In this document: piece after piece, positions 2,846-49,047 of the stretch
How positions within the stretch are numbered: position 1 is the first letter of the stretch
Layout: the number at the start of each line of letters is the position of its first letter
NCBI GenBank assembly: GCA_014859305.1
Contig: JACUUM010000006.1
Location: 1-56,989, forward strand
Direction of reading: 5' to 3'
DNA from: Coriobacteriia bacterium
Lineage (GTDB): Bacteria > Actinomycetota > Coriobacteriia > Anaerosomatales > Kmv31
DNA length: 56,989 nucleotides
The notes under the pieces: model-generated
The model's input: the letters and a program-made list of their open reading frames with translations, nothing else
What the model was told of the DNA's origin: nothing
Database searches by the model: none
Translations under genes and position numbers: made by a program

Positions 2846-3021
2846 AGTAGCTGTACAGATCTGGGTAAGTCCGTGGGGCTACGCTCGTCGTGTCCTCGCC
2901 CGGCCGCTAAGCGCCGACGGGGACCGGCGGTTCGTCGGGCTTCCCGGACAAGGGACACCGCGACTGCGCGGGTACAGGCCCATAGGTGAGGAGACGGGAG
3001 ACTCCTGAGGGGCACCGTATG
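2846..3021 (+). ncRNA. candidate structured RNA in the secA leader
   Basis: This gene-free stretch can form several nested helices seen directly in the sequence: CTGTAC (2851-2856) with GTACAG (2972-2977); GTGTCC (2890-2895) with GGACAC (2953-2958); GCCCG (2898-2902) with CGGGC (2936-2940); CGCCG (2912-2916) with CGGCG (2925-2929); and a long 3' hairpin CATA-GGTG-AGGAG / CTCCT-CACC-TATG (2981-3021). A TAGTAT box at 2835-2840 could be the -10 of its promoter. A strong hairpin follows at 3065. Such a fold is more than chance GC pairing usually gives. The identity is not recognised with certainty. The raiA-type RNA, known from Gram-positives near raiA (a common secA neighbour), is my first guess by context only. 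A new riboswitch-like leader is the alternative. Confidence 0.4.
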
Positions 3022-3064
3022 AGGCTGAGGCGACCTGCCTGTCGAGCCCGCTGGGCTGTCGGGA

Positions 3065-3098
3065 AGGGAGCCGGGGAGGGCATCCTCCTCGGCTCCCT
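3065..3098 (+). terminator. strong 15-bp hairpin without U-tract (terminator or attenuator)
   Basis: AGGGAGCCGGGGAGG (3065-3079) pairs with CCTCCTCGGCTCCCT (3084-3098) around a GCAT loop, with a single G-U pair. No T-run follows, as is common for terminators of high-GC actinobacteria. It sits between the candidate RNA and the likely secA promoter, so it may end the RNA or act as its expression platform. Confidence 0.55.
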
Positions 3099-3182
3099 CC
3101 ATCGTGCGAGCCGCGTACGCTGCGGCCCTGCTCGTCCCACTGCCCGCCGCGGCCCGCGAGCGGCTCGCTACGGCACGCTCTA

Positions 3183-3191
3183 TGCTAGAAT
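3183..3191 (+). promoter_or_regulatory. extended -10 promoter of secA
   Basis: TGC-TAGAAT is a good extended -10 element about 65 bases before the secA ATG. No clear -35 is seen, which is usual in this window. A small inverted repeat (GCTGG-CTA-CCAGC, 3219-3231) lies in the resulting leader. Confidence 0.5.
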
Positions 3192-3254
3192 CGGGAGGTT
3201 CGGCCGAGGACTTTTCTTGCTGGCTACCAGCTACTTCTTGAGGTGTTGACACTC

Positions 3255-6017
<2,763 letters not shown>

Positions 6018-34343: not shown

Positions 34344-35090
34344 TTGGCACTGGAGGGAAACCTCAGGGATTTCTCGCTCCCGGACATGTTCCGCCTGCTC
34401 GCGTCCGGGAGGAAGACCGGGACCCTTTACATGGAGAACGGCGAGGCGACCGGCAAGGTCTGCTTCGACTCGGGCAGGGTCTTCTTCGCCTCGTCCAACT
34501 GGAACCGGGAGTCGCTCGGCCGCCGGCTCGCGCGAGCGGGGGTGATCTCGGAGAAGCAGCTCCGCCAGGCCCTGGGCCTCCAGAAGATCCAGAAGAAGGA
34601 GAAGGCGGGGCGCCGCCTCGGCCAGATCCTCGTGGACGAGGGCTACCTGGAGGCCAAGGTGCTCGAGAGCTTCATCCAGGAGCAGATCAACGATACGCTG
34701 TTCGACCTCTTCAGGTGGGAGGAGGGTCAGCTGCGCTTCGAGCCGGAGGACACGTGTGAGGAGGAGGACATCGGCATCTCGGTCTCGGTCGAGAACGTCA
34801 TCATGGAGTCCTCGCGCCGGCTCGAGCTGTGGAACCGCATCAGGCAGAAGATCCCCACACTGGAGACCGAGTTCGTGATGGCGGCAGGGCCCGGCGACAA
34901 GTCCATGGAGATCCACCTGAAGCCCAAAGAGTGGATGCTCCTGTGCTACCTGCACGGCGGGCGCTCGGTACGGGAACTGGCGCAGCTCACCGGCTACAAC
35001 GACTTCGAGACAGCGAAGATCCTCTTCGGCATGTACTCGGCGGGGCTGATCGAGAAGGCCTTCGACGAGGAGTCGGCGGCGGAGCTCTAA
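34344..35090 (+). CDS. DUF4388 domain protein, first gene of the chemosensory operon
   Basis: 248 residues. The N-terminal 100 fit DUF4388 (MALEGNLRDFSLPDMFRLLA, SGRKTGTLYMENGEATGKVCFDSG), a domain also found in PatA-type response regulators and in gliding or pilus-related signalling proteins. A helical C-terminus follows, probably a winged helix (EWMLLCYLHGGRSVRELAQLTG). The start is TTG at 34344, justified by the perfect ribosome site GGAGGTGA at 34333-34340. The longer frame from 34226 crosses the leader hairpin. It lies three bases before cheR, so it belongs to the same operon and probably links the receptors to the pilus machinery, by inference only. Confidence 0.85.
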   Translation: MALEGNLRDFSLPDMFRLLASGRKTGTLYMENGEATGKVCFDSGRVFFASSNWNRESLGRRLARAGVISEKQLRQALGLQKIQKKEKAGRRLGQILVDEGYLEAKVLESFIQEQINDTLFDLFRWEEGQLRFEPEDTCEEEDIGISVSVENVIMESSRRLELWNRIRQKIPTLETEFVMAAGPGDKSMEIHLKPKEWMLLCYLHGGRSVRELAQLTGYNDFETAKILFGMYSAGLIEKAFDEESAAEL

Positions 35091-35093
35091 CCG

Positions 35094-36629
35094 ATGCTGG
35101 AGCCCCTCGGCCTGCCAAAGGACCTCACCGCCGATGAGTTCACCCGCTTCCGGGACTACATCAACGGCCACTCAGGCATCTACCTGGAGGACAGCAAGCG
35201 GGATTCGCTGCGGATCTCGCTGGTGACCCGTACCACCCGCCGCGGTTTCGAGAGCTTCGACGAGTACTTCCGCATCCTCACGGCCGACGAGGACGAGTTC
35301 AAGGAACTCATGAACCTCGTCACCATCAACGAGACGAGCTTCTTCCGGTTCCCGGCTCAGTTCGAGGCGCTGCGCGACCACGTGCTCCCGGAAGTGATGC
35401 GCTCGCGGCCGCAAGGGAGGCAGCACGCGATCCGGATCTGGTCGGCGGGGTGCTCCACGGGCGAGGAGCCGTACTCGATCGCGATAACGCTGGCCGAAGC
35501 GGGGCTGGAGGGCCTCGGCCGGCAGCCGCACGTGCTGGGGACGGACGTGTCGACCGCCGCTCTGAACGTGGCCCGCCGCGCGGTCTACTCAACGAAGTCG
35601 CTGCTCAACGTCCCGCCGGAGGTGGTCAGAAGGCACTTCGAGGAGACCGAGGCGGGGCAGCGCGTCCGCAGGCAGACGCGCTCGATGGTGGAGTTCTCGT
35701 ATCACAACCTCATCAAGGAGCCGTACCCGCTGTCCCTCATGGGAGCATGGGACGCCGTCTTCTGCCGCAACGTCACCATCTACTTCAAGCTCGAGTCGAC
35801 CCGCCGTGTCGTCGAGAACTTCTACCGGATGCTCAACCCCGGCGGCTACCTCTTCGTCGGGCACTCCGAGACGCTCACCAACATCTCCTCGGCGTTCGAG
35901 CCGCTCGAGGTCGGAGGCGTGTTCCTCTACCGGAGACCCGTCGCGAGGCCCTTCGCGGTCGCGCCGCTCCAGGTCCCGCCGGCCGCTCCCGACGGCAAGG
36001 CACGGCCGGACGGCGCCGGGACGACGAAGCGGTGCGCCGTCGCGAAGGCCGAGAGCGGTACGTCCCGGCCGGAGCCCGCCGACGGGGCGAGCGAGGTCGA
36101 GGCATCCTCCGAGACCGAGGCCCTCTTCGAGGAGGCTCGCCGGCTCGCCGGAACGGGGCGGCCAGAGGAGGTCCTGGCCGTGGTCGAACGGCTCGAGGAG
36201 GCGGACCCCGAGGGGGCGGAGGCCCACCTGCTCGCCGCGTACGTGCATGCCGACCTCGGTGATTACGCCGAGGCGCTCGCCGCTTGCCGCCGCGCGCTGG
36301 CGGTGAACCCGTTGCTGCCTTCGGCGCGATTCATCCTCGGCATCATCCACCAGCGCCAAGGGGACGTCCCCAGCGCGGTGTCGGAGCTGAAGAAGACGAT
36401 CTACATCGACGCCGACTTCGCCCTGGCGCACTTGAACCTCGGCAACCTCTACAAGTCCCAGCGCAAGTGGGATGCGGCGTCCCGCAGCTACGAGAACGCG
36501 CTGAGGGCGCTGTCCGTTGAACCTCGCGGCGAGTGGTCGGTGTTCATGGGCGGCTTCCAGACCGATCTGCTCGTCAAGACGGTCGAGCGTTCTCTGCTAG
36601 AGTGTCGGAAGGCGTCCTCGGACGGCTAG
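35094..36629 (+). CDS. cheR: CheR-type chemoreceptor methyltransferase with C-terminal TPR repeats
   Basis: Methylates glutamates of chemoreceptors using S-adenosylmethionine. 511 residues: the CheR all-helical N-terminus (residues 1-80), the SAM-binding domain (IRIWSAGCSTGEEPYSIAITL near 122, VLGTDVSTAALNVARRA, DAVFCRNVTIYF near 225, GGYLFVGHSETL), then a charged linker and a TPR region from about 345 (AEAHLLAAYVHADLGDYAEAL, LAHLNLGNLYKSQRKWDAAS). CheR-TPR fusions are typical of alternative chemosensory systems that control pili, development or biofilms rather than flagella. The ATG follows the DUF4388 stop by three bases. Confidence 0.93.
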   Translation: MLEPLGLPKDLTADEFTRFRDYINGHSGIYLEDSKRDSLRISLVTRTTRRGFESFDEYFRILTADEDEFKELMNLVTINETSFFRFPAQFEALRDHVLPEVMRSRPQGRQHAIRIWSAGCSTGEEPYSIAITLAEAGLEGLGRQPHVLGTDVSTAALNVARRAVYSTKSLLNVPPEVVRRHFEETEAGQRVRRQTRSMVEFSYHNLIKEPYPLSLMGAWDAVFCRNVTIYFKLESTRRVVENFYRMLNPGGYLFVGHSETLTNISSAFEPLEVGGVFLYRRPVARPFAVAPLQVPPAAPDGKARPDGAGTTKRCAVAKAESGTSRPEPADGASEVEASSETEALFEEARRLAGTGRPEEVLAVVERLEEADPEGAEAHLLAAYVHADLGDYAEALAACRRALAVNPLLPSARFILGIIHQRQGDVPSAVSELKKTIYIDADFALAHLNLGNLYKSQRKWDAASRSYENALRALSVEPRGEWSVFMGGFQTDLLVKTVERSLLECRKASSDG

Positions 36630-36714
36630 GCGTTGTGCGTCGGACGCCTAAAGCGAGCCGTGCCACACGACCGATACAGTAGTGACGCGCACGTCGGGTG
36701 TGGAGGGAGTCCTG

Positions 36715-37095
36715 ATGGCGAACGCGCGCATCCTCGCGGTCGACGACAGCCCAACGGTCCTCGAGATGATCAAGGCCATCCTGGTCGGGGGCGGCTACGA
36801 GGTGATCACCGCCGCGGACGGCGCCGAGGCGCTGGAGACCGCGCGGGCGGAGATGCCCGACCTGATCCTGCTCGACGTGATGCTGCCGAAGCTGGACGGC
36901 TACCGCGTCTGCCGGCTGCTCAAGTTCGACGCCAAGTACAAGGCGATCCCGATCGTCATGCTGACGGCCAAGACCGAGGAGCAGTCGATGGCAACGGGCA
37001 TCCGCACCGGAGCGAACCAGTACCTCACTAAGCCGATCGAGCCCGAGAAGCTGCTCTCGGCGGTCGCCGAGGAACTGTCCAAGGTCCAGGGGTAG
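36715..37095 (+). CDS. single-domain response regulator (CheY-like)
   Basis: 126 residues of a pure receiver domain: DD in ILAVDDSPTVLEM (residues 10-11), phospho-acceptor aspartate in LILLDVMLPKLDGY (near 54), the threonine in VMLTAKTEE and the lysine in YLTKPIEPE. All are conserved, so phosphorylation by the CheA of this operon is expected. The output partner is not flagellar by context. It may be the pilus motor or the PilB-like protein encoded next. Start ATG 36715 behind GGAGGGAG. A possible internal promoter (TACAGT, 36675) lies in the 85-base gap after cheR. Confidence 0.93.
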   Translation: MANARILAVDDSPTVLEMIKAILVGGGYEVITAADGAEALETARAEMPDLILLDVMLPKLDGYRVCRLLKFDAKYKAIPIVMLTAKTEEQSMATGIRTGANQYLTKPIEPEKLLSAVAEELSKVQG

Positions 37096-37106
37096 GCGGG
37101 TCCGGC

Positions 37107-39068
37107 GTGGGCGCGAACACCATGACCGGAAGGGTGCTCGACACCCTCGTGGCCGCCGGGTCGCTGACCGCCGAACAGCTCGTCTCCGTGCGGGAGACGG
37201 CGGAGGCGCAAGCCAAGGACCCCGGCGCCCTGTTGCTCGAGCGCGGGCTGGTGACGGAGGCCGACGTCCGTGCCGTGCTCGAGGAGGAGATGGGGATACC
37301 GCAGGTCGACCTCTCGAGCTACGCGCCGGAGGAGTCCGCTCTGGCCCTCGTGCCCGCCGGCGTGGCGCGCGAGCGGCGCTTCCTGCCGCTCTTCGAGATC
37401 GAGGGGATGCTGACCATCGCGATCGGCGGTCCCACCGACGTGTTCACGCTGGACTCCGTCGCCGCCGAGCTCGGCGTGGACCTGGAGCCCGTGTTGGCCG
37501 ACCCCGCGTCGGTCCTCGGCGCGCTCGCCCAGTACTACGGCGCGCAGCCGGCGCCCGAGGCGGCGCCCGCGTCCGAGCCCGTCCCCGCGGCCGAGCCCTC
37601 GCCCGAGCTCGCGGCGGCACTCGAGCCCGAGCCCGAGCCGGAGCCCGCCGTGCCGGCCGAGGCGGAGCCGGCCGCGGCACCCGAGCCGGACGAGTCCGCC
37701 GAGGAAGAGATCGTGTTCAGCGCCGAGGACCTGTTCGAGGTCCCCGTCGCCGAAGAGCCCGTCGCCGTCCCCGAGCCTGAGACCCGGGTCGCCGGCGCCG
37801 AGCCCGCCGCGGAGGCCGAGGAGGCGCCGACGGCAGGCGAGACGATCGACCGCGTGGCCGTCTCCGCCGCGCCCGAGGGCGCGCCCTCGATCGACCTGGA
37901 CGTCCTTGCGGTCGCGGATGCCGGCAAGGTCGCGGTTCTCGTGGCGGAGATCCTGGAGCAGGCCGTCCGCCGCAGGGCCAGCGGGATCCACCTCCTTCCG
38001 TACAAGGACGACTTCTTCCTGGTCTTCAGGATCGAGGGGAGACTGGAGAAGGTGTCCAGCGCGCCGTTGTCGATGCAGCAGCCCCTGATCGAGGGCTTCA
38101 AGAGCTTCGCGCATCTGGGCTCCGTCGGAGCCGGGGTCCCGGCGTTCGGGCGCCTGCACGCGCGACTCGCGGACAGGGACCTGGTCGTCACCCTCTCCAC
38201 CGTGCCGACCGTGGCGGGCCAGCGGATGGTGATATCCCTGGCCTCGGCCGAGCCTACGCCTCGCACGCTGCACGAACTGGGCATGAGCGAGGCCGAGGCG
38301 CGCGCGCTGCACGCGATGGTGGAACGCGGGCGCGGCATGCTGCTCGTCTGCGCGCCCGTGGCGGCTGGCGCCTCGTCCACCTACTACGCGCTGCTCGCCC
38401 ACGCCGCCCACGCGGGCAAGACCGTCTACTCCGTGGAGCGCGCGATCGAGTACGAGCTCCCTGCCGTGGCGCAGGTGCTCGTCAACCCGGGGTCGCCCGT
38501 CGGCGCCTCCTCCTATTTCGCCGCGGGGATGCGGCAGGACACGGACGTGATGGCGATCGACTCCCTGCAATCCGTCGAGGAGGTGCATCTCGCGATCGAG
38601 GCCGCCGGGCTGGGCAAGCTCGTCATCGCCACTTACGCCGCCGGCGACATCGTCTCCGGCGTACGCCGCATGTTGGACATCGGAGCCGAGCCCAACAGCC
38701 TCGCGTCGGCGCTCACCCTCGGGGTCGGTCAGCGTCTCGTCCGGACGAACTGCGCCCGTTGCGTCGCCGAGGAGGCCTCGAGCCTCGCGGCGGGGATCCC
38801 CGGCGCCCCCAAGGGGCTCGAGACCAGGGCCGGTGCCGGGTGCCCCGCATGCGCGATGACCGGGTTCGCGGGCGTGACGGGGGTCTTCGAGGTACTTCCC
38901 TTCACCGAGCCCGTCCGTGCCTCCGTCGCAGCCGGCTCCGCCGCCGCCGGGATCGGTGCGACCGCGCAGGCCGCCGGGATGCGCCCACTCTCCGCCTCGG
39001 GTCTCGAGAAGGTGAAGGACGGGCTGGTCAGCGCCGAAGAACTGGACCGAGTGCTGAGGTTCTCGTGA
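37107..39068 (+). CDS. degenerate PilB/GspE-like protein without a functional Walker A
   Basis: 653 residues with the layout of a type IV pilus or type II secretion ATPase, but damaged at the active site. Residues 1-150 form the N-terminal GspE domain (TLVAAGSLTAEQLVSVRETA, LLERGLVTEADVRAVL). A Pro/Glu/Ala-rich linker spans about 150-270. Residues 270-650 follow the PilB core. Where PilB has GPTGSGKTTT, this protein reads CAPVAAGASST (near 414), with no lysine. The Walker B region with its GEIRD glutamate reads AIDSLQS (near 480). The zinc-binding cysteines NCARC (near 547) and GCPAC (near 577) remain. ATP hydrolysis is therefore improbable. It may act as a regulator or adaptor of a real PilB. 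ATG 37122 is an alternative start. Confidence 0.85.
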   Translation: MGANTMTGRVLDTLVAAGSLTAEQLVSVRETAEAQAKDPGALLLERGLVTEADVRAVLEEEMGIPQVDLSSYAPEESALALVPAGVARERRFLPLFEIEGMLTIAIGGPTDVFTLDSVAAELGVDLEPVLADPASVLGALAQYYGAQPAPEAAPASEPVPAAEPSPELAAALEPEPEPEPAVPAEAEPAAAPEPDESAEEEIVFSAEDLFEVPVAEEPVAVPEPETRVAGAEPAAEAEEAPTAGETIDRVAVSAAPEGAPSIDLDVLAVADAGKVAVLVAEILEQAVRRRASGIHLLPYKDDFFLVFRIEGRLEKVSSAPLSMQQPLIEGFKSFAHLGSVGAGVPAFGRLHARLADRDLVVTLSTVPTVAGQRMVISLASAEPTPRTLHELGMSEAEARALHAMVERGRGMLLVCAPVAAGASSTYYALLAHAAHAGKTVYSVERAIEYELPAVAQVLVNPGSPVGASSYFAAGMRQDTDVMAIDSLQSVEEVHLAIEAAGLGKLVIATYAAGDIVSGVRRMLDIGAEPNSLASALTLGVGQRLVRTNCARCVAEEASSLAAGIPGAPKGLETRAGAGCPACAMTGFAGVTGVFEVLPFTEPVRASVAAGSAAAGIGATAQAAGMRPLSASGLEKVKDGLVSAEELDRVLRFS

Positions 39069-39093
39069 TCGTGCACCGACGGACGGACCGCCG

Positions 39094-39696
39094 ATGAGCC
39101 CACGCAAGAGCACGAGCGACGGGCCCGCCGCAGGCAAGCGGCGGAAGTCGCGCGCGCCCTCGGGGGAGCGGGCGGGCCGGGAACCCGCCGCCGCGGTGGC
39201 GGAGGAGGTCCCGGCGGCGCCCGGCGAGCCGGCTCCCACCGCCCCCTCGCCCCTCCTTTCGGAGAGGCTCGTGGTGTTCCGTCTGGAGGGCCAGCGCTAC
39301 GCGCTCCCGATCGAGTGCGTCCAGGAGATCCAGCACCTGGTCGCGTACACCGACGTACCCGACCCGATGCCGGCGCTCGTGGGCATGGTGAACCTGCGCG
39401 GCGTGGTCGTCCCGCTCGTCGACCTTCGCATCCTCCTCGGCATGGAGCCGCGGCCCTTCACGCTGGAGACACCGATGATCATCGGGCGGCTGGACGAGGC
39501 GCTCGTCGCGCTCGCCGTGGACGAGGTCGAGGATGTCGTCTCGGTCACGCCGGGCTGCGTCCAGGATCCTCCCCGGCTGCACGCCCTCACCTCGAAGATG
39601 CTCGGCGTGTGCCGGATGGAGCCCGACCTGGTCTTCGTGCTCGACCTTCGCGCGGTCGTGCCCGATCTCGGTCTGGTCGCGGGTGACGTCGCATGA
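39094..39696 (+). CDS. cheW: CheW-type adaptor with basic N-terminal extension
   Basis: 200 residues. The first 55 are a disordered, basic then Ala/Pro-rich extension. The CheW fold follows (RLVVFRLEGQRYALPIECVQEI, MVNLRGVVVPLVDLRILLGM), coupling receptors to the histidine kinase. The extension is unusual and could tether it to another component. Its stop overlaps the ATG of the second cheW (ATGA), so the two are co-translated. Two CheW proteins in one operon suggest separate arrays or CheW-only rings. Confidence 0.92.
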   Translation: MSPRKSTSDGPAAGKRRKSRAPSGERAGREPAAAVAEEVPAAPGEPAPTAPSPLLSERLVVFRLEGQRYALPIECVQEIQHLVAYTDVPDPMPALVGMVNLRGVVVPLVDLRILLGMEPRPFTLETPMIIGRLDEALVALAVDEVEDVVSVTPGCVQDPPRLHALTSKMLGVCRMEPDLVFVLDLRAVVPDLGLVAGDVA

Positions 39697-40235
39697 GCGG
39701 CGATCCCGCGCTGGGGTCCGCCCTGGACGCCGCGGCCCTCGAGGAGTTGAAGCGCCGGGCGCTGTCGCTCGCGCAGGAGGCCGAGGAGGAGCACGGCGAG
39801 GAGTCCCTCACGCTGCTGCTGTTCGAACTCGGCGAGGAGTGCTACGCGGTGCGCGTGACGGAGGTGCGAGAGATCTACCAGGAGTACTCGCTGACACCGA
39901 TACCCTGCGTCCCCGATCACGTCCTCGGCGTGGTCAACATACGGGGCGAGATCGTGTCCGTGACGGACCTTGCTCGCCTGATGAAGCTTCCGTCGGGCGG
40001 ATCCACCGAGTGCCTGCCGGCGATCGTGCTGCAGGGGGAGTCGGCGGTCACCGCGGCTGTGGTGGACGCCATAGGCGACATCGTCGAAGTGCCCAAGGAC
40101 GCGCTGGAACCGCCGGTGAGCATCGTCGGCAAGGTCCACGCCGACTACATCTCCGGTTCAGTGTACGTGGACGACAGGCTCGTGGGGCTGGTGAACCTGG
40201 AGCGCGTGCTCCAGCCGGTGGGAGCAGCGGACTGA
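39693..40235 (+). CDS. cheW: second CheW-type adaptor
   Basis: 180 residues, CheW domain from about residue 40 ([40 protein letters not shown]) after an acidic helical N-terminus. It ends near [12 protein letters not shown], the usual CheW end. Clearly a paralogue of the preceding adaptor, but without its basic tail. It overlaps the first cheW by four bases and precedes the receptor gene by 25. Confidence 0.92.
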
Positions 40236-40260
40236 GGCATCGGAGGAGAGGCGACGTACG

Positions 40261-41484
40261 ATGAAGGGGCTCCTGGACAAGGTCAGGTCGAAGTTCCTGT
40301 ACAAGTACTCGCTGGTCAACATCGGCCTGGTCATCATGCTCAACGTCATCCAGATGTGGGTGATGTGGTCGCTCTTCGGCGACGCGGTGCGCGGCACCGC
40401 CGGCTTCTGGTCGGACGTGCTCATCCTCGGCGCTACCTTCGTCGCTCTCGGCGTCGTGTGGGTCGTCCTCTTCGTCACGATCGGCTCGCGCTTCATGACG
40501 CCGCTGGACCGCGTCGTAGACAGTGTGAAGGCGGCATGCCAGGGCGAGGTGGGACGCAAGGTCGCCGTCGAGACCGCGGACGAGTTCGGCACGCTCGCCC
40601 ACTCGTACAACCAGATGATCGACCTCATCGTCTACCTGATCAAACAGACGCAGGAGTCGTCACGCCGGCTGGCGGAGTCCTCGACCGAGATCCTGACCGC
40701 TACCGAGCAGCAGGCGTCGGGCTCGGCGGAGCAGGCCGCCTCGATCAGCCAGACCACCGCGACGATGGAGGAGCTCGCCGCGACGTACCGCCAGATAGCC
40801 GACAACGCCGACCAGGTCGTGCGGATGGCCGAGGCGAGTCTCGGCAGCGCCGAGAGCGGGCAGCAGGCCGTGCTCAACACACTCTCGGCCATGGAGGAGA
40901 TCAAATCGCGCGCCCAGACCTCGGCGAACAAGATCCTCGCGCTGGGCGAGCGCAGCCAGCAGATCGGCCAGGTGCTCTCGATGATCAACTCCATCGCGGA
41001 CCAGACCAAGATCCTCGCACTCAACGCCGCGATCGAAGCCGCGCGCGCCGGCGAGGCGGGCAAGGGGTTCTCGGTCGTCGCCGTCGAGATCCGCAAGCTG
41101 GCCGAGTCGGTGGTGGACTCGACCGGGGAGATCTCGACGATCATGACGGAGATCCAATCGGCGGCCAACGACCTCGTCATCTCCACGGAGCAGGAGCTGA
41201 AGCAGGTCCAGGGCGGGGTGGACCTCGCGCACGTGACCGGGGGGAGCCTGGACCAGATCCTCGAGATGGTCGAACAGACCACCGTGGCGGCCAAGGAGAT
41301 CTCCGCGGCCACGCAGCAGCAGAAGAGCGCCACCGACCAGGTCGTGAAAGCGATGCGGGAGGTCGCCTCGGTCGCGCAGCAGACGGCAGCCGGGAGCAAG
41401 CAGGTCGCATCCTCCGCGGAGCAGCTCTCCACGCTGGCTAACGAGTCGAGCCAGGTAGGCGCGGCGTTCAAGATCGTCGGGTAA
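40261..41484 (+). CDS. methyl-accepting chemotaxis protein without a ligand-binding domain
   Basis: 407 residues. Two membrane helices (about 17-38 and 55-75) are joined by only some 16 residues, so there is no periplasmic or extracellular sensor domain. A HAMP-like segment ([21 protein letters not shown]) and the cytoplasmic signalling domain follow, with the kinase-contact tip [20 protein letters not shown] and [20 protein letters not shown] (near 255). Such receptors sense through the membrane or through protein partners. Glutamine/glutamate-rich helices ([17 protein letters not shown]) offer methylation sites for the CheR and CheB of this operon. Confidence 0.92.
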
Positions 41485-41523
41485 GGCCCGGCGAGGACCG
41501 CCTGCAGCGAAGGGACCGCGAGG

Positions 41524-43827
41524 ATGGTCGAGTTCGACCGCTCGGCGTTCATATCGAAGTTCCAGGAGGAGGCCACCGACCTCCTGCAGCGCCTGAACGA
41601 GGGCGTCATCATGCTGGAGAGTGAGCCCGGCGACGCGGCGCTCGTCGACCGGATGCTGCGCGACGCCCACACGCTCAAGGGCAGCTCGCGAATGGTCGGG
41701 CTGCTCGAGATCAGCGACATCGCCCACCGCCTCGAGGACATCATGGTGAGGGTGCGCGATAAGGACATGGCGTACTCCGCCGAGCTCTCGGAGTGCTTCT
41801 TCGAGGCGCTCGACGCCATGGTGTACCTCTCGGACAACGCCGGCGGCGACACGTCGGCGTTGGACCCGGAAGACCTGCTCGCGCGCCTGGCAGCCCTGAC
41901 AGGTGGCGGCCGGCGCGAGGCAGCGGAGGGCGTAGCGCATGCGGTGGCCGCCGGGCTCGCCGCGGAGCTCAAGGCGGCTCCGCCGGCCCGGGCGGAGGAG
42001 GGAGCGGCGGGTGCTTCTCCGCTTACACTCCCCGGAGGCGAGCCGGATAGAGCGCAGCGCGAAGAGACGCTGCACAAGCGCGAGCAGACCACTGTGCGGA
42101 TACGCACTCAGCAGGTCGATGCGCTCCTGAACCTCATCAGCGAGGTCGTCATCACGCAGATCAAGGCGGAGCAGCGTGCCAGCGAGCTGCGCGCAGCCGC
42201 GACGGAGATGAGCGACATCTGGCAGTCGTGGGTTCGTCTCAAGGCGGGGCTGTCGGCGGTCCAGATGGAGGACGAGAGCCTGCTGTCGACGCTCTCGGAC
42301 GACATCGAGCTGCTGGATGCGCTGCTGGTCGAGCGAAAGCGCGCCCACGCGGCGTTCACGAAGGACTACGGGGACGACACCTCCCGCTCCTCCACCGTCG
42401 TCACGGACCTGCAGGAGCAGGGCATGCGGTTACGCATGTTGCCGGTCTCGACGGTCTTCAACACGTTCCCGCGGGCGATGCGAGAGCTTGCCCGGTCGTA
42501 CAGGAAGGACGTCGACCTGATCATCGAGGGCGGCGACACCGAGCTGGACAAGAAGGTGCTCGAGGAGATAAACGACCCGCTCATCCACATCATGCGCAAC
42601 GCCGTGGATCACGGTCTCGAACCGGCCGAGGAGCGGCGCGCGCTGGGCAAGTCGGCCAAGGGCACGATCAGGATGTCGGCCCGCCAGGAGGGCGATCACA
42701 TCGTGATCGAGGTGGCCGACGACGGACAGGGTATCGACGCCGACGCCGTCCGGGCCACGGCCGTCCGCAAGGGTTACGTGACGGAGAACGAGGCGGCCTC
42801 GATGAGCGACCGCGAGGCCACCTACCTCATCTTCGAGAAGGGCTTCTCCACGAGCCCGATCATCACCGAGATCTCCGGCCGGGGCGTCGGCATGGACGTG
42901 GTGCGCGAGTTCATCGTCGAGAAGCTCAAGGGCTCGCTGGACGTCGAGTCCACGTCCGGCGAGGGCACCCGGTTCCGCCTCACGATCCCGCTGACGCTAG
43001 CGATCATCCGGGCCCTGATGTTGCAGGTCGGCGGGCAGGTCTTCGCGCTGCCGACGGCGTCGGTCGAGGAGACGCTGCGCATCGATCCGTCGAGCATGCT
43101 CAAGGTCGAGGGCCGCGAGGTGATCAGGCGGCAGCGCCGAACCGTACCGCTCGTGCGCCTCGGCGACATCCTCGCACTGCCCTCGGAGGCGGCGGCTCCC
43201 GGCTCGAAGGTGCCGATAGCCACGGTGGGCTTCTCGGGCCACAGGATGGGCTTCATCGTCGACGCGCTGCTGGGGGAGCAGCAGATCGTGATCAAGAACC
43301 TCGGTACGCACCTGTGCAAGGTGGACAACGTCGCCGGGGTCACGATACTGGGGGCAGGGGAGGTCGTGCCGATCCTGAACGTCCCGGACCTGATGGCCAA
43401 CGCCCGCACGCTCACCGGCGCGCGTCGCAGGGAGTCCGCCGCTGAGGAGAGCAGGGGGCCGCGGCGCGTGTTGATATGCGAGGACTCGTTCACGACGCGC
43501 GAGCTCGAGCGGTCCATCTTCGAGGCCGCCGGCTACGAGGTGGAGGTCGCCATGGACGGCGCGGCGGGACTCACCAAGCTGCGGGAGGGCTTGAAGGTCG
43601 ATGCCGTGGTGACGGACGTGCAGATGCCCAATCTGACCGGCTTCGAGCTCACCCGCGCGATCAAGGGCGACCCGGTGTTGGAGCAGATCCCGGTCGTGAT
43701 CGTCACCTCGCTGGAGCGCGACGAGGAGAAGGCCGAGGGCATCGAGGCCGGGGCTGACGCCTACATCACCAAGTCCGTCTTCAACCAGGACACGCTGCTG
43801 GACACGGTCGAGCGGCTCATCCACTGA
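41524..43827 (+). CDS. cheA: hybrid chemotaxis histidine kinase CheA-REC
   Basis: 767 residues. The Hpt domain has the phosphorylated histidine in RDAHTLKGSSRMVG (H49). There is no CheY-binding P2 domain: a short linker leads to the dimerisation region (VRIRTQQVDALLNLISEVV), the ATPase domain with N-box IMRNAVDHGLEPAEERR and G-boxes DDGQGID and SGRGVGMDVV, and the CheW-like P5 (VGGQVFALPTASVEETL). A receiver domain at 640-765 ends the protein, with an intact aspartate (VVTDVQMPN, D698) and lysine. The fused receiver is typical of pilus or developmental chemosensory kinases (ChpA, FrzE) and may act as a phosphate sink. Confidence 0.95.
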   Translation: MVEFDRSAFISKFQEEATDLLQRLNEGVIMLESEPGDAALVDRMLRDAHTLKGSSRMVGLLEISDIAHRLEDIMVRVRDKDMAYSAELSECFFEALDAMVYLSDNAGGDTSALDPEDLLARLAALTGGGRREAAEGVAHAVAAGLAAELKAAPPARAEEGAAGASPLTLPGGEPDRAQREETLHKREQTTVRIRTQQVDALLNLISEVVITQIKAEQRASELRAAATEMSDIWQSWVRLKAGLSAVQMEDESLLSTLSDDIELLDALLVERKRAHAAFTKDYGDDTSRSSTVVTDLQEQGMRLRMLPVSTVFNTFPRAMRELARSYRKDVDLIIEGGDTELDKKVLEEINDPLIHIMRNAVDHGLEPAEERRALGKSAKGTIRMSARQEGDHIVIEVADDGQGIDADAVRATAVRKGYVTENEAASMSDREATYLIFEKGFSTSPIITEISGRGVGMDVVREFIVEKLKGSLDVESTSGEGTRFRLTIPLTLAIIRALMLQVGGQVFALPTASVEETLRIDPSSMLKVEGREVIRRQRRTVPLVRLGDILALPSEAAAPGSKVPIATVGFSGHRMGFIVDALLGEQQIVIKNLGTHLCKVDNVAGVTILGAGEVVPILNVPDLMANARTLTGARRRESAAEESRGPRRVLICEDSFTTRELERSIFEAAGYEVEVAMDGAAGLTKLREGLKVDAVVTDVQMPNLTGFELTRAIKGDPVLEQIPVVIVTSLERDEEKAEGIEAGADAYITKSVFNQDTLLDTVERLIH

Positions 43828-43841
43828 AGCAGGGGGGCGCG

Positions 43842-44918
43842 TTGCCGCACGACAAGCCGATCCGCGTGCTGATCGTGGACGACTCCCTGGTCGCTCGCGA
43901 GATGCTCTCGCAGATCCTGGCCAGCGACCCCTCGATCGAAGTCGCGGACACGGCGCGTGACGGCGCCGAGGGCGTCGAGAAGTGTGCCCGGTTGCGCCCG
44001 GACCTCGTCACCATGGACATCCACATGCCCAGGATGGACGGGCTTGAGGCCACCGAGCGCATCATGGCCTACACGCCCACCCCGATCCTCGTGGTCTCCT
44101 CGTCGGTGTACGGTCCGGGCATAGGGCGCGCCTTCGACGCGCTCGCGGCCGGCGCGCTCGAGGTCATCAAGAAGCCCGAGCCGCGGGACTGGGCGGACCT
44201 CCAGCGCATCGGCGCCGACGTGATACGCAAGGTGCGCATCCTCTCGCGCGTGCCGGTGATAACGCACGTGCTCGGGCGCCGGCGGACAGCCGCCGCGCAC
44301 GCGGTCGCCGACGCGCCGCTCGCCTCGCCGGGCGGGCTCGCCGTCGTGGCGGTCGCCTCGTCCACCGGCGGGCCGTCGGCGCTGCAGACGGTGCTGGGCG
44401 AGCTGCGGGAGGACCTGCCCGTGCCGATCGTCGTGGCGCAGCACATCGCCGACGGTTTCGTGCCCGGGCTCGTGGCGTGGCTCCAGGCGGGCTGCGCCAT
44501 CCGGATGCGAGCCGCCGAGGACGGGGAGCGCATGGTGCCGGGCGTCGTGTACTTCGCCGTCACGGGCTGCAACACGCGTGTCGACGGACTGACGTTGCGC
44601 TTCGCCCAGCCCGGTCCCGAACAGCTCTACGTCCCCTCGGCCGACACGCTCTTCGAGTCCGTGGCCGACAGTCACGGCAAGCGGGCGCTCGGTGTGATCC
44701 TGACGGGCATGGGAGCCGACGGGGCGGCCGGGCTGAAGCGGCTGCGGGGGGCCGGAGCCCCCACCATCGCCCAGGACGAGGGCTCCTCGACCGTCTTCGG
44801 GATGCCCAGGGCGGCCGTCGAGGCCGGGGCGGCCGCGGCGGTGATGCCCGTCACCGTCATCGCCGAGGAGATCGAACGCCTGGTGATGGGCCACCGCGAA
44901 GCCGGAGAGGCGTCCTGA
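43842..44918 (+). CDS. cheB: chemoreceptor methylesterase CheB
   Basis: 358 residues: a receiver domain (IRVLIVDDSLVAREML, phospho-aspartate in LVTMDIHMPRMDG near 56, PTPILVVSSSVYG) joined to the methylesterase domain. The catalytic serine lies in VASSTGGPSALQTVL (near 172), the histidine in VVAQHIADGFVPGL (near 200) and the aspartate in LTGMGADGAAGL (near 291), so the enzyme should be active. It removes methyl groups added by CheR. Starts at TTG 43842 behind GGGGGG, 14 bases after cheA. Last gene of the operon. The following 184 bases show no clear terminator. Confidence 0.95.
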   Translation: MPHDKPIRVLIVDDSLVAREMLSQILASDPSIEVADTARDGAEGVEKCARLRPDLVTMDIHMPRMDGLEATERIMAYTPTPILVVSSSVYGPGIGRAFDALAAGALEVIKKPEPRDWADLQRIGADVIRKVRILSRVPVITHVLGRRRTAAAHAVADAPLASPGGLAVVAVASSTGGPSALQTVLGELREDLPVPIVVAQHIADGFVPGLVAWLQAGCAIRMRAAEDGERMVPGVVYFAVTGCNTRVDGLTLRFAQPGPEQLYVPSADTLFESVADSHGKRALGVILTGMGADGAAGLKRLRGAGAPTIAQDEGSSTVFGMPRAAVEAGAAAAVMPVTVIAEEIERLVMGHREAGEAS

Positions 44919-45102
44919 CACGTCGGTCCCGCTCCCGCGTCGGGCGCTCTCGGAGGCCCCCTTTCGTCCTCTCGGCGAGGTGCGGTTCGCTCCCTGCTAT
45001 CAAGACCGCCGCGAACAGGGCCGATATCTGATTCCAAGAGGACCCGCCGCCGATCGTCCGGCAGACGCGGCGCGGGCGCCCGTCGGGGAAGGGGTGAGGG
45101 CC

Positions 45103-46704
45103 GTGACTCTCGCTGTATACCTGTCGCGTTGTCGCGGCAGGATCGGTCCCGCGCTGGACCTCGATGCGCTGGCCGGGGAGCTCACGGGGCAGGCGGAGGT
45201 CGTCGCTGTCGTCGAGGACCTGTTCGACCCCGAGACGACGTCCCGGATGCGCCGCGACGTCAGCGCGCACGGGCTGGACTCGGTAGTGCTGGGCGGCAAC
45301 TCGTTCGACCACTACCGGCGCAGCCTGTCGGGACAGCACCTGCGCGAGGCGCTGGTCGCGTGCGGCGTCGACTCGAACCGCATCATCACGGCGAACCTGC
45401 TCGAGCAGGTGGCTCTCCCGCACGGCGACGACCCGGCGGGCGCTCGGGGCAAGGCCCTGGCGCTCGTCCGGGTGGCGATGCTGCGAGCGTCGGTGGCGCG
45501 ACCGACCCCGGCCGAGCAGATCGCCCCTCGCCGCTCCGTGCTCGTGCTCGGCGCCTCCACCGAGGGCTTCGTCGCGGCGGAGCGGCTCCTGCGGCTCGGG
45601 TACGAGGTCACGTTGGCCGACAGGGGCGATGCCGCGATCCGCGCTCGCGCAAGCACGCTCGCCGCGACGAGGTCCTACGTGGTGGGCCACCCGGCCACCC
45701 GCCTCGTGAGCGAGGCGCGGATCGCCGACGGGACGGGCTGGCTGGGCGACTTCGAGATCGTGCTCGCGACGCCGGACGCGGAGATGCGCGTGGCCGCGGG
45801 CGGGCTCTTGCTCGCCGAGCCGCACGAGCCGGCGTGGGCGGCCGAACTGCGCGGGCGTTTCCGGATCGACGTGGACGACGAGGGGTACGCCCGGTCGCTC
45901 GACCCACGGACGCATCCGGCCGAGACGGTGGAGCCCGGGGTCATGGTCGTGCCCGTGCGCGCCGACGGCTCGAACGGACGCGACAAGGTGCAGGCGGCCG
46001 ACGCCGCCTCCCTGGCGCTCGTGCTCGCTCTCACCCGCTCCACCGTGCCGCACGTGCACGACGTCTCGATGGTGGACGACACGCTGTGCGGCGGTTGCGC
46101 CTCGTGCGTGAAGACGTGCGCGTTCGAGGCCTGCTCGATCGATGCGGACGGGTTGTCGCACGTGGACGAACGGCGCTGCCGCGGCTGCGGGAAGTGCGTG
46201 GTGGGATGCCCCGTCGGTGCTCGCGACGTGCTCAACTCGCCGCACGCGTACCTCACGGGCGCCATCGCCGAGCTCTCCGTCGCGCGCGTGCCGGGCCCCA
46301 AGGTGCTCGGCTTCCTCTGCGGCGGCTGCGGCTACCCCGCGGCGGATCGCGCGGGGGAGGACGCCGCGGCCGGGGCGGGAGGCTACCCGGCGTCCTTCCT
46401 GCCCCTGCGCATCCCGTGCGGCGGACGGCTCGACACGCTATACGTGCTGGAGGCGTTCCGGGCGGGCTTCGAAGCGGTCACCGTGTTCCGCTGCCGCGAG
46501 GGTCACTGCCACAACGTGATCGGCAACCTGGACATGGACCGGCGCGTGAACCTCCTGCGTACGGTGCTGCGCTCGCGCGGCATCGACGACGGCCGGCTGC
46601 GGATAGCGGACGTATCGCCCGACGAGGGCGGGGGTTTCGTCGGCCACCTGGAGGCCGTGTTCGCGGCGCTGCCGGAGCTCTCGGCGACCGGAGGTGCCCG
46701 ATGA
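45103..46704 (+). CDS. HdrA-like/ferredoxin/MvhD fusion, hydrogenase electron-transfer subunit
   Basis: 533 residues. Residues 1-300 resemble HdrA (heterodisulfide reductase A), but are degenerate: the N-terminal CHCG cluster motif is reduced to a single cysteine (LSRCRG), and the FAD loop reads LGASTEGFVAAERL instead of GxGxxG. Two 4Fe-4S motifs follow, CGGCASCVKTCAFEAC (near 328) and CRGCGKCVVGCPVGA (near 358). Residues 405-515 match MvhD, the [2Fe-2S] hydrogenase-to-Hdr linker: FLCGGCGYPAADRAG, IPCGGRLDTLYVLEAFRAG, CREGHCHNVIGNLD. It would pass electrons from the hydrogenase encoded next to an unknown acceptor. HdrB and HdrC are not adjacent. GTG 45103 follows a GGGGTGAGGG site; GTG 45094 is possible. 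Confidence 0.85.
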   Translation: MTLAVYLSRCRGRIGPALDLDALAGELTGQAEVVAVVEDLFDPETTSRMRRDVSAHGLDSVVLGGNSFDHYRRSLSGQHLREALVACGVDSNRIITANLLEQVALPHGDDPAGARGKALALVRVAMLRASVARPTPAEQIAPRRSVLVLGASTEGFVAAERLLRLGYEVTLADRGDAAIRARASTLAATRSYVVGHPATRLVSEARIADGTGWLGDFEIVLATPDAEMRVAAGGLLLAEPHEPAWAAELRGRFRIDVDDEGYARSLDPRTHPAETVEPGVMVVPVRADGSNGRDKVQAADAASLALVLALTRSTVPHVHDVSMVDDTLCGGCASCVKTCAFEACSIDADGLSHVDERRCRGCGKCVVGCPVGARDVLNSPHAYLTGAIAELSVARVPGPKVLGFLCGGCGYPAADRAGEDAAAGAGGYPASFLPLRIPCGGRLDTLYVLEAFRAGFEAVTVFRCREGHCHNVIGNLDMDRRVNLLRTVLRSRGIDDGRLRIADVSPDEGGGFVGHLEAVFAALPELSATGGAR

Positions 46705-47645
46705 GCGGGAACGGGCCGGACCGGCCGACGCTGGCCACGATCGTGCTGGGCGGGTGCATGGGATGCCACCTCTCGCTGCTGGACGCCCACGAGGCGCTGT
46801 TGGACCTCCTCGGCGAGGTCGACCTGGTGCACTCACCGCTGACGTGCGGCGACGAGCTGCCCGCCTGCGACGTGCTGCTCGTCGAGGGGGCCGTCGGCAG
46901 CGCCGAGGACGAGCGGCGTCTGCGCGAGGCCCGCGGCAGGGCGACGACGCTGGTGGCGCTGGGTACCTGCGCGGCGCACGGCGGCATAGCGGGACTGCGC
47001 AACCTCAGCAGGCTGGACGACGTGTTGGCGACCGCGTACGGAGACGGCGCTCCAGCCGGCGAGGGGGTGCCCGCGCTGGCCGAGCGGGTGCGCCCGCTCT
47101 CCGCGGTGGTGGACGTGGACCTGGAGGTCCCGGGGTGTTCGCCCAACACCGAGCTCGTGCTGCACGGGGTCGAGGCGGCGCTGGGCCGACGGGAGCCCGA
47201 TGCGAGGCGCCGCAACCTGTGCGCCGAGTGCGAGCGGGTGCACGAGACGATGCTGCACCCTTCGCGCGAGTTCGTCTCCGACGCCGTCTACGCGCTCATG
47301 GAGCTCGAGGCGATCGACCCTGGGCGGTGCTTCCTCGAGCAGGGCGTGCTGTGCATGGGGCCGATGACGCGGGAGGGGTGCGGGGTTCGCTGCGCCAAGG
47401 CCAACGTGCCCTGCCGTGGATGCGCCGGCCCGTCACGGCGGGAGTTCGAGCAGGGCGGGAAGGCCATAGACGCGCTGGCCGCCGTCCTGCCGGCGGGCGC
47501 GATCATGTTCCTCGACGACCTGATCGGGACCGGCTATCGGTTCACGCTGCCCGTGTCCATCCTGCCCGGGCTCCTCGGATCGGCCGGGGGCGAGCCGGCG
47601 CGGGAGGACGCGGAGGACGCGGAGGGAGGCGGTCTCGTTGCCTGA
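46701..47645 (+). CDS. mvhG: [NiFe] hydrogenase small subunit, group 3 (MvhG-like)
   Basis: 314 residues. The proximal cluster ligands are seen in [18 protein letters not shown] (near 15), [13 protein letters not shown] (near 87) and [12 protein letters not shown] (near 140). The C-terminal half has the ferredoxin-like cysteines expected for MvhG/F420-non-reducing types: [28 protein letters not shown] and [14 protein letters not shown]. No Tat signal, so the enzyme is cytoplasmic, as usual for group 3. The ATG overlaps the stop of the preceding gene (ATGA). An acidic tail ([12 protein letters not shown]) overlaps the start of the large subunit. Confidence 0.9.
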
Positions 47646-49047
47646 GACGGTGCGCCTGGCGCCGCTGAAGCGTCTCGAGGGGCACGGCCGCGTCACGCTC
47701 CACCTCGCCGAGGACGGTACCGTTGGCTCGGCCCACTTCGACGTGACGGAGTTCCGAGGCTTCGAGCGGCTCGTCGAGGGCCGCATGGCGTGGGAGATGC
47801 CGCTGGTCACGAGCCGCGTCTGCGGCATCTGCCCGGTGAGCCATCACGTGGCCGCCGTCAAGGCCGTCGAAGCGATGCTGGGCGTGCAGCCGCCCCGGGC
47901 GGGCAGGCTGCTGCGCGAGCTGCTCCACCTGGCGGGCTTCGTCCACGACCACGCGCTGCACTTCTTCTTCCTCGCCGGACCGGACTTCCTCACCGGCGAT
48001 GGCGCCGGCAGCCGCGACATCCTCGGGGTCGTCGAGGGGCGGCCGGACCTCGCCCGCGCCGCCATCGCGCTGCGCAGGACGGGCCAGACGATCGTCGAGA
48101 CCGTGGGCGGCCAAGGACACCCGGTGACGGCGATACCGGGTGGCATGAGCCGGGGGATCTCCGACGAGACCCGCCTCGAGCTCCTCGGCCTCGTGCGGGA
48201 AGCTGTCCCGGAGGCGGCAGCCGCCGAGCGGGTCGCCAGGGAGAGCACGCTGCGCCTGCTCGACGAGCATCCCGGTTTCGGGTCGTCCGCCACGCCGTAC
48301 GTCGGCCTTCTCGCCGAGGACGGCCGGCTGGACCTGTACGACGGCGCGCTGTCCGTGGTCCTGCCGAGCGGGGCGCTCACGTCGTTCCCCCCGTCCGAGT
48401 ACCCCGAACACATCGCGGAGCGCACGCTTCAGCACAGCTTCGCGAAAGTGCCGTACCTGCGAGCCGGCGGGGACCGGGGGGTCGTCTACCGCGTGGGGCC
48501 GCTCGCGCGGCTGAACCTCGCCGCTTCGACGGGCGGCGAGCGGGCCGACGCGCTCCTGGCCGAGTGCCGGGAGACGCTGGGCGCTCCCGTGCATCACACA
48601 CTCGCGTACCACTGGGCGCGCATGATCGAGCTGGTCGCGGTGCTGGAACGCATGGAGGCCGTCCTCGGCGACGCCGAGGTGGCCTCGCCGGAGGTGCGCG
48701 TACGCGTCTCGCGCGGCGGCGGCAGCGGCGTCGGGGTCGTCGAGGCCCCCCGAGGGACGCTCATCCACCGCTACGAGGCCGACGAGGTCGGCCGTGTCAC
48801 CGCCGCGGAGCTCATCGTGGCCACGACGCACAACAACGCCGCCATCGACGCCGCGGTAGCCGAGGCGGTCGGCGGAGCCGACGCACGCTCGGGGTTGGAC
48901 GACGCCGCGCGGCGCCGCATGGAGCTCGGCATCCGCGCCTACGACCCCTGCTTGTCGTGCGCGACCCACGAGGTCGGGCGCATGCCGCTCGAGGTCCGCG
49001 TCGTCTCGCCGGAGGGTTGGCCCCCGGGGACGGAGGGGGCGGCGTAG
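47638..49047 (+). CDS. mvhA: [NiFe] hydrogenase large subunit, group 3 (MvhA-like)
   Basis: 469 residues holding the Ni-Fe active site. The N-terminal cysteine pair is in [17 protein letters not shown] (near 60) and the C-terminal pair in [10 protein letters not shown] (435-444). The protein then runs on for 25 residues after the histidine (EVGRMPLEV to the end), the usual peptide removed by the maturation protease, which is encoded opposite at 49357. The four cysteines are intact, so an active enzyme is expected. The start is TTG 47638 behind GGAGGGAGG, overlapping mvhG. Group 3c or 3d is favoured by neighbours; the class needs an alignment. Confidence 0.92.

Follow-up and report, generated by a model that had tools for sequence, protein, structure and literature searches.

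A PilB-like pseudo-ATPase conserved within a chemosensory operon of the Anaerosomatales

Bacteria of the order Anaerosomatales encode a PilB-family pseudo-ATPase (hereafter pseudo-PilB) that is genuine and conserved, and that belongs to the core of a chemosensory operon. It is described here from a 56,989-nucleotide stretch of DNA (the window) that forms part of contig 6 of a Coriobacteriia bacterium, whose genome measures 2.13 Mb and is 98% complete. The evidence suggests that a former pilus motor has been turned into a signalling part that links pili to a sensory array. The more specific role that we propose, on which we regard the case for and against as about evenly balanced, is that of an obligate core part of a pilus-type chemosensory system, serving on its input side as an adaptor between the type IV pilus (T4P) machine and the array.

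The operon (34344-44918; Table 1) comprises nine tightly packed genes in the order DUF4388, CheR-TPR, CheY, pseudo-PilB, CheW, CheW, MCP, CheA-receiver and CheB, with pseudo-PilB as the fourth and with short intergenic gaps throughout. As an initial sequence-only reading of this DNA had stated, the gene lies between cheY and cheW: CheY is encoded directly upstream (36682-37095), and two CheW proteins directly downstream, beginning with that at 39094-39696. The same reading did not mention the DUF4388 gene that opens the operon. In its composition the system resembles the Tfp class, in that its CheA bears a C-terminal receiver and the genome has no flagellum, the latter judged from FlhA only, a single marker. 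A scan of the sequence for promoters and terminators gave results near chance level. To the 3' side of the operon (44980-49047) lie matches to an FlpD/iron-sulfur protein, an Oxidored_q6-type protein and a NiFe hydrogenase large subunit; the first of these genes also trails the chemosensory operon in several relatives within the order, and relatives of the first and last precede the operon in G471, a genome from outside the order.

Table 1. Genes of the chemosensory operon and features of pseudo-PilB, with coordinates in the window
Feature	Coordinates	Strand	Remarks
DUF4388 (PATAN-type) protein with MshEN-like c-di-GMP motif insert	34344..35090	+	First operon gene
CheR methyltransferase with C-terminal TPRs	35094..36629	+	
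CheY-type single receiver; D (LLDVMLP), T (LTA) and K (KP) present	36682..37095	+	Start may be 36715
Pseudo-PilB, 653 aa	37107..39068	+	T2SSE core lacking the catalytic motifs, joined to an MshEN-type N-domain by a disordered linker
MshEN/GspE N-domain, residues 6-148	37122..37550	+	
Ala/Glu/Pro-rich linker, residues 150-246, low-confidence, probably disordered	37554..37844	+	AlphaFold2
Dead Walker A CAPVAAGASST, residues 415-425, K to A at 422	38349..38381	+	
Altered Asp box VERAIEY, residues 443-449	38433..38453	+	
Dead Walker B TDVMAIDSLQS, residues 479-489	38541..38573	+	No variation at D480 or D485 within the order
Lost His box TYAAGD, residues 509-514	38631..38648	+	
Zinc-type CxxC pair kept, C549, C552, C579, C582	38751..38852	+	
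CheW 1	39094..39696	+	
CheW 2	39693..40235	+	Overlaps CheW 1 by 4 bases
MCP: two TM helices, ~22-residue loop, HAMP, signalling domain, no ligand-binding domain	40261..41484	+	
CheA: Hpt, dimerisation, ATPase and CheW domains, C-terminal receiver	41524..43827	+	
CheB methylesterase	43842..44918	+	Last gene of the conserved operon

Pseudo-PilB is encoded by a single open frame, for which an alternative ATG start is possible at 37122. The GspE N-domain and PilB core layout recognized in the sequence-only reading were recovered by Pfam, as MshEN at residues 62-148 (57 bits) and as a full-length T2SSE at residues 270-648 (188 bits), and again in the predicted fold. The single-chain AlphaFold2 model has a mean pLDDT of 82.9 and consists of a confident N-domain and a confident core with the disordered linker between them. 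A fold search of the PDB returned Geobacter PilB, Thermus PilF and Vibrio EpsE as the best matches, with Geobacter PilB at the top (TM 0.82 of the target); by prediction, the protein keeps the PilB fold. Since this fold is retained, docking where PilB docks is still plausible, and by the model pseudo-PilB may plausibly dock at the pilus platform, at PilB itself or at PilB's regulators. Against the PilB equivalog model TIGR02538, pseudo-PilB scores 274.7 bits and falls far short of the cut-off of 675.65, though this cut-off alone is not decisive because a canonical PilB from contig C9 of the same genome, at 635.1 bits, also falls below it.

The active site of the protein has been dismantled. 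In an alignment with three canonical PilBs from the same genome, A422 occupies the place of the P-loop lysine; the Asp box reads VERAIEY against the canonical VEDPIEY/VEDPVEY, the Walker B region TDVMAIDSLQS against PDVVMIGEIRD, and the His box TYAAGD against SLHAND/TLHTND. The protein is accordingly without the P-loop lysine, the Walker B glutamate, the Asp-box aspartate and the His-box histidine, and the earlier description of a P-loop (CAPVAAGASST) lacking lysine and of a GEIRD region reading AIDSLQS holds in full. A second P-loop (G-x4-GK[ST]), which would have spoken against a dead enzyme, was not found elsewhere in pseudo-PilB. Judged by its motifs, pseudo-PilB is unable to run an ATP cycle and has presumably lost ATP binding as well. 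The original view of a catalytically dead PilB relative belonging to a chemosensory system is supported. Annotation by family name would wrongly call a conserved set of these genes pilus motors.

Orthologues of pseudo-PilB, at 55-72% identity as compared with ~30% for canonical PilBs, are present in 51 of the 61 genomes searched. The operon's CheA is likewise present in 51; both proteins occur together in 50 genomes and neither occurs in nine, while the mismatches in the remaining two are accounted for by contig ends. Gene order is kept at 67 of 67 loci of the order, as far as the contigs reach (the loci were drawn from two collections, and some represent the same genome twice), so that, within the order, the question of whether homologues regularly lie beside cheY and cheW can be answered in the affirmative. 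A class-wide search of 248 genomes found strong matches confined to Anaerosomatales, and the relatives in named records are almost all metagenome assemblies of Coriobacteriia/Anaerosomatales, on which basis we would place the window's genome in that order.

Among 55 distinct orthologues of the order, residue 422 is arginine in 29, alanine in 16, serine in six, glycine in three, cysteine in one and lysine in none. The Walker B glutamate is likewise found in none of the 55, and D480, D485 and E444 are invariant. The zinc-binding cysteines that the initial reading had seen in the window's protein are kept, all four, in 54 of these relatives, the remaining row being a gap. A set of 21 canonical PilBs has 113 invariant core positions; the pseudo-PilB family retains 57 of these and has lost 56, the losses including the catalytic motifs and the N2D arginines at columns 306, 343 and 362. 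A further 46 positions are near-invariant in the pseudo-PilB family and rare among canonical PilBs; the remodelled motifs YSVE, QDTD..AxD and AT[FY] occur in nearly all relatives, and P417, G421 and S423 are retained in pseudo-PilB. With the same motifs in 55 orthologues and the same gene order at every locus examined, this pattern lies beyond chance. The sequence-only reading had named an isolated decaying copy as one circumstance that would undo its case. A functionless PilB copy would explain the loss of motifs and nothing else, and its probability is negligible: we reject it on the strength of dN/dS values of 0.05-0.12 (11 pairs), one intact frame in all 55 distinct relatives, order-wide conservation and a fixed position in the operon. 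Conservation, purifying selection and the fixed operon instead show that pseudo-PilB is functional even though its ATPase site has been taken apart.

A second ligand site appears to have been lost along with the first. Scored with NCBIfam NF053729, which describes the MshEN c-di-GMP motif (cut-off 38 bits), pseudo-PilB reaches 21.7 bits and two relatives from the order 19.3 and 23.9, all below the cut-off, whereas the canonical PilB from contig C9 lies above it at 53.5 bits. On this measure pseudo-PilB probably does not respond to c-di-GMP. The product of the first operon gene does pass the cut-off (42.7 bits) and carries a DUF4388/PF14332 domain (114.7 bits), which we take to be the PATAN domain. 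This protein, with its MshEN-like inserted stretch, is conserved across Anaerosomatales, and a fold search with it against the PDB gave no significant match. Apart from this gene, the genome has a single DUF4388 gene (contig C5, L133:355-1494, reverse strand), which adjoins a canonical PilB. That placement suggests that DUF4388 proteins are partners of PilB, and that c-di-GMP input enters the system there and not at pseudo-PilB.

Profile searches of the phylum, together with a follow-up search among relatives of G471, uncovered the same operon, as far as the contigs reach, in four genomes (G471, G413, G520 and G518) from three other families of the same phylum. In the PilB-like proteins of these genomes the lysine (NSGKT, RSGKT and HAGKT) persists, as does the Walker B aspartate-glutamate pair, and the Asp and His boxes have been lost; with NF053729, three of the four copies score 38-41 bits and the fourth is not among the matches listed. 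Whether the P-loop is always lost, as had been asked at the outset, therefore depends on the group considered: it is lost throughout the Anaerosomatales sampled, and it survives as SGKT or AGKT in these four genomes. In a phylogenetic tree, the four outside proteins and the Anaerosomatales proteins (17 rows) form one clade against the canonical PilBs (100/99), within which the branching is unsure because G471 and G518 form long branches. A smaller tree, in which the degenerate copies of G413 and G520 were counted as canonical, had set G471 outside the dead clade (AU p 0.029); the tree in which both were labelled degenerate and G518 was added overturned this placement with its 100/99 branch.

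Homologues with functional motifs at the same position had also been foreseen as a possible difficulty, and two genomes do have an intact PilB beside cheY. In G461 the fully intact PilB adjoins CheY in a cluster that also has CheR, CheB, an sCache MCP and CheA, and in G249 an intact PilB adjoins cheY. Both group with canonical PilBs in the tree, and we therefore regard them as separate associations and not as direct ancestors. A single origin of chemosensory-linked PilBs that includes the intact G461 copy was rejected (AU p 4e-9). In a Myxococcales metagenome-assembled genome (L106, PBTG01000199.1), a PilT-like protein at 2973-3692 has a similar kind of decay, with a P-loop of SSAGHGRSST and a Walker B of RQDTDVIAVDD, and may represent an independent pseudo-motor.

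As the outside relatives keep the lysine without the Asp and His boxes, loss of the P-loop seems to have come late in the extended decay of the active site. In the probable sequence of events, the ancestral protein joined the chemosensory genes, the hydrolysis motifs were then lost, and the Anaerosomatales subsequently lost the P-loop lysine and the c-di-GMP motif. Only tentatively do we extend this to function, by supposing that the stepwise loss of the ATPase and then of the ATP- and c-di-GMP-binding motifs is what made a pilus motor the input of an array whose receptor had shed its sensor domain; on that view, the array would sense the pilus by way of an inactive copy of its motor. Another reading is that pseudo-PilB still binds nucleotide (e.g., via R422 in most relatives) as a slow switch or nucleotide sensor. 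The four outside relatives with their lysine and Walker B aspartate-glutamate pair, the arginine at 422 in about half of the order's members, and the retention of P417, G421 and S423 are all consistent with this; we nonetheless think it very improbable, since the whole order is without the Walker B glutamate, the His box and the aspartate of the Asp box, and the window's own species carries A422.

The genomic context makes the pilus the obvious partner of the operon. FlhA, a single marker, is absent from the 98% complete genome, and a flagellar output of the chemosensory operon was rejected on this ground; the bacteria of the order appear to be without flagella. Cultured Anaerosomatales are described as non-motile rods that bear numerous pili-like appendages (PMC9686372). 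Strains of the order in culture include Anaerosoma tenue and Parvivirga hydrogeniphila. The genome holds pilus genes, including three canonical PilBs (contigs C4, C5 and C9) with all motifs intact and a PilB-PilT-PilC set together on contig 9. Elsewhere in the genome, contig C33 (L131:26-6802, forward strand) carries a second chemosensory cluster with CheR, MCP, CheW, CheY, CheB and a CheA with a P2 domain, and further along the same contig are a GGDEF protein and a PilT-like ATPase. On contig C1 (L136:6512-8227, forward strand) there is a receiver-PilT fusion (Response_reg and T2SSE) with an intact Walker A.

The receptor bears on how pseudo-PilB might act within such a system. A hydropathy test of 14 loci with a degenerate PilB found the MCP to be without a sensor domain at every one of them, as it is in the window; the sCache MCP of G461, by contrast, belongs to the one operon with an intact PilB and a full chemosensory set (a single contrast). 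A Myxococcus PilB with alanine in place of the Walker A lysine resembles the apo form and acts as a signal upstream of the Dif MCP-CheW-CheA complex; a Walker B mutant that still binds ATP gave no suppression in the same test (PMC5544727). We favour the input side because of the sensorless MCP and because of this precedent, the same change being natural in the window's pseudo-PilB. Pseudo-PilB would hold a permanently apo-like PilB conformation that is occupied or released as the state of the pilus changes; the chemoreceptor, having no sensor domain of its own, would read the state of pseudo-PilB; the DUF4388 protein may act as a c-di-GMP-responsive partner; and CheY would form the output of the system. 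We infer both the docking partners of pseudo-PilB and the direction of signalling. The arginine, not alanine, that most relatives carry in place of the P-loop lysine counts against this reading, and docking at the pilus platform may itself have been lost, given that many non-catalytic PilB positions are gone.

The adjacency of CheY and PilB, which extends to the intact PilBs of G249 and G461, fits an output role at least as well as an input role. Pseudo-PilB would in that case be a regulated decoy motor, bound by CheY~P or by the DUF4388 protein, that turns extension off or on by competing with the real PilB on the platform, by capping it or by joining it. The sequence-only reading had likewise proposed that the protein receives the chemosensory signal. 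This is one possible direction, and the position of cheY directly upstream wherever the contig reaches lends it weight, as does the receiver-PilT fusion, from which it follows that receiver control of such motors exists in the genome. PilG controls the localisation of PilB in Pseudomonas (PMC12632253), and for Synechocystis, binding of PilB1 by the PATAN regulator PixE has been reported (cited in PMC7690835). A working mixed ring nevertheless sits less easily with the loss of the invariant N2D arginines and of many other PilB positions, a receptor without a sensor domain would leave the system with no obvious input, and the apo-like PilB of Myxococcus lies upstream of the kinase; we consequently consider an output role possible but somewhat doubtful. 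A pure scaffold, which transmits no signal and serves only to anchor the array to the base of the pilus, strikes us as unlikely: it would suit the retained fold and zinc site, the lost ligand sites and the long disordered linker predicted by AlphaFold2, yet an anchor has no obvious need for the conserved remodelled motifs.

Set against known systems, the input adaptor that we propose has partial parallels. With PilB/GspE (T2SSE, TIGR02538/TIGR02533; 5tsh, 5zfr, 5oiu, 1p9w), pseudo-PilB shares the MshEN domain, the N2D-C2D core and the tetracysteine zinc site, at ~28-29% core identity, and it differs from them in its four missing catalytic residues and its place in a chemosensory operon. The canonical PilBs of its own genome have the same domain order at ~30% identity, and the copy on contig C9 adjoins PilT and PilC, unlike pseudo-PilB. 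The likeness to Myxococcus xanthus PilB (PMC5544727) lies in the Walker A substitution and the nucleotide-free-like form that signals to MCP/CheW/CheA; that case, however, concerns a laboratory mutation in a real motor, whereas here a dedicated, naturally dead paralogue is encoded with the kinase, beside three canonical PilBs. Pseudomonas Pil-Chp and Synechocystis Tax/Pix also place T4P under chemosensory control, and in them PilB is the target of receiver or PATAN proteins; chemicals or light are sensed there by the receptors PilJ and PixJ1, and the available parts of these sources describe no dead PilB in either operon (PMC12632253; PMC7690835). No description of a dead PilB in a chemosensory operon was found in the literature searched, a body of work that leaves most subscription journals outside its coverage.

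These observations bear on how T4P report their state to chemosensory kinases and on how such kinases steer pilus motors. The Walker A mutant of Myxococcus showed that a chemosensory pathway can take its signal from a PilB in an apo-like form (PMC5544727). In Anaerosomatales, such an apo-like form appears to have been naturally fixed as a separate gene in the operon of the kinase, and other families have relatives that grade towards it. A signalling PilB that is separated from the motor PilB offers a clean genetic handle, and two members of the order are in culture, for which pili and a lack of motility have been described.
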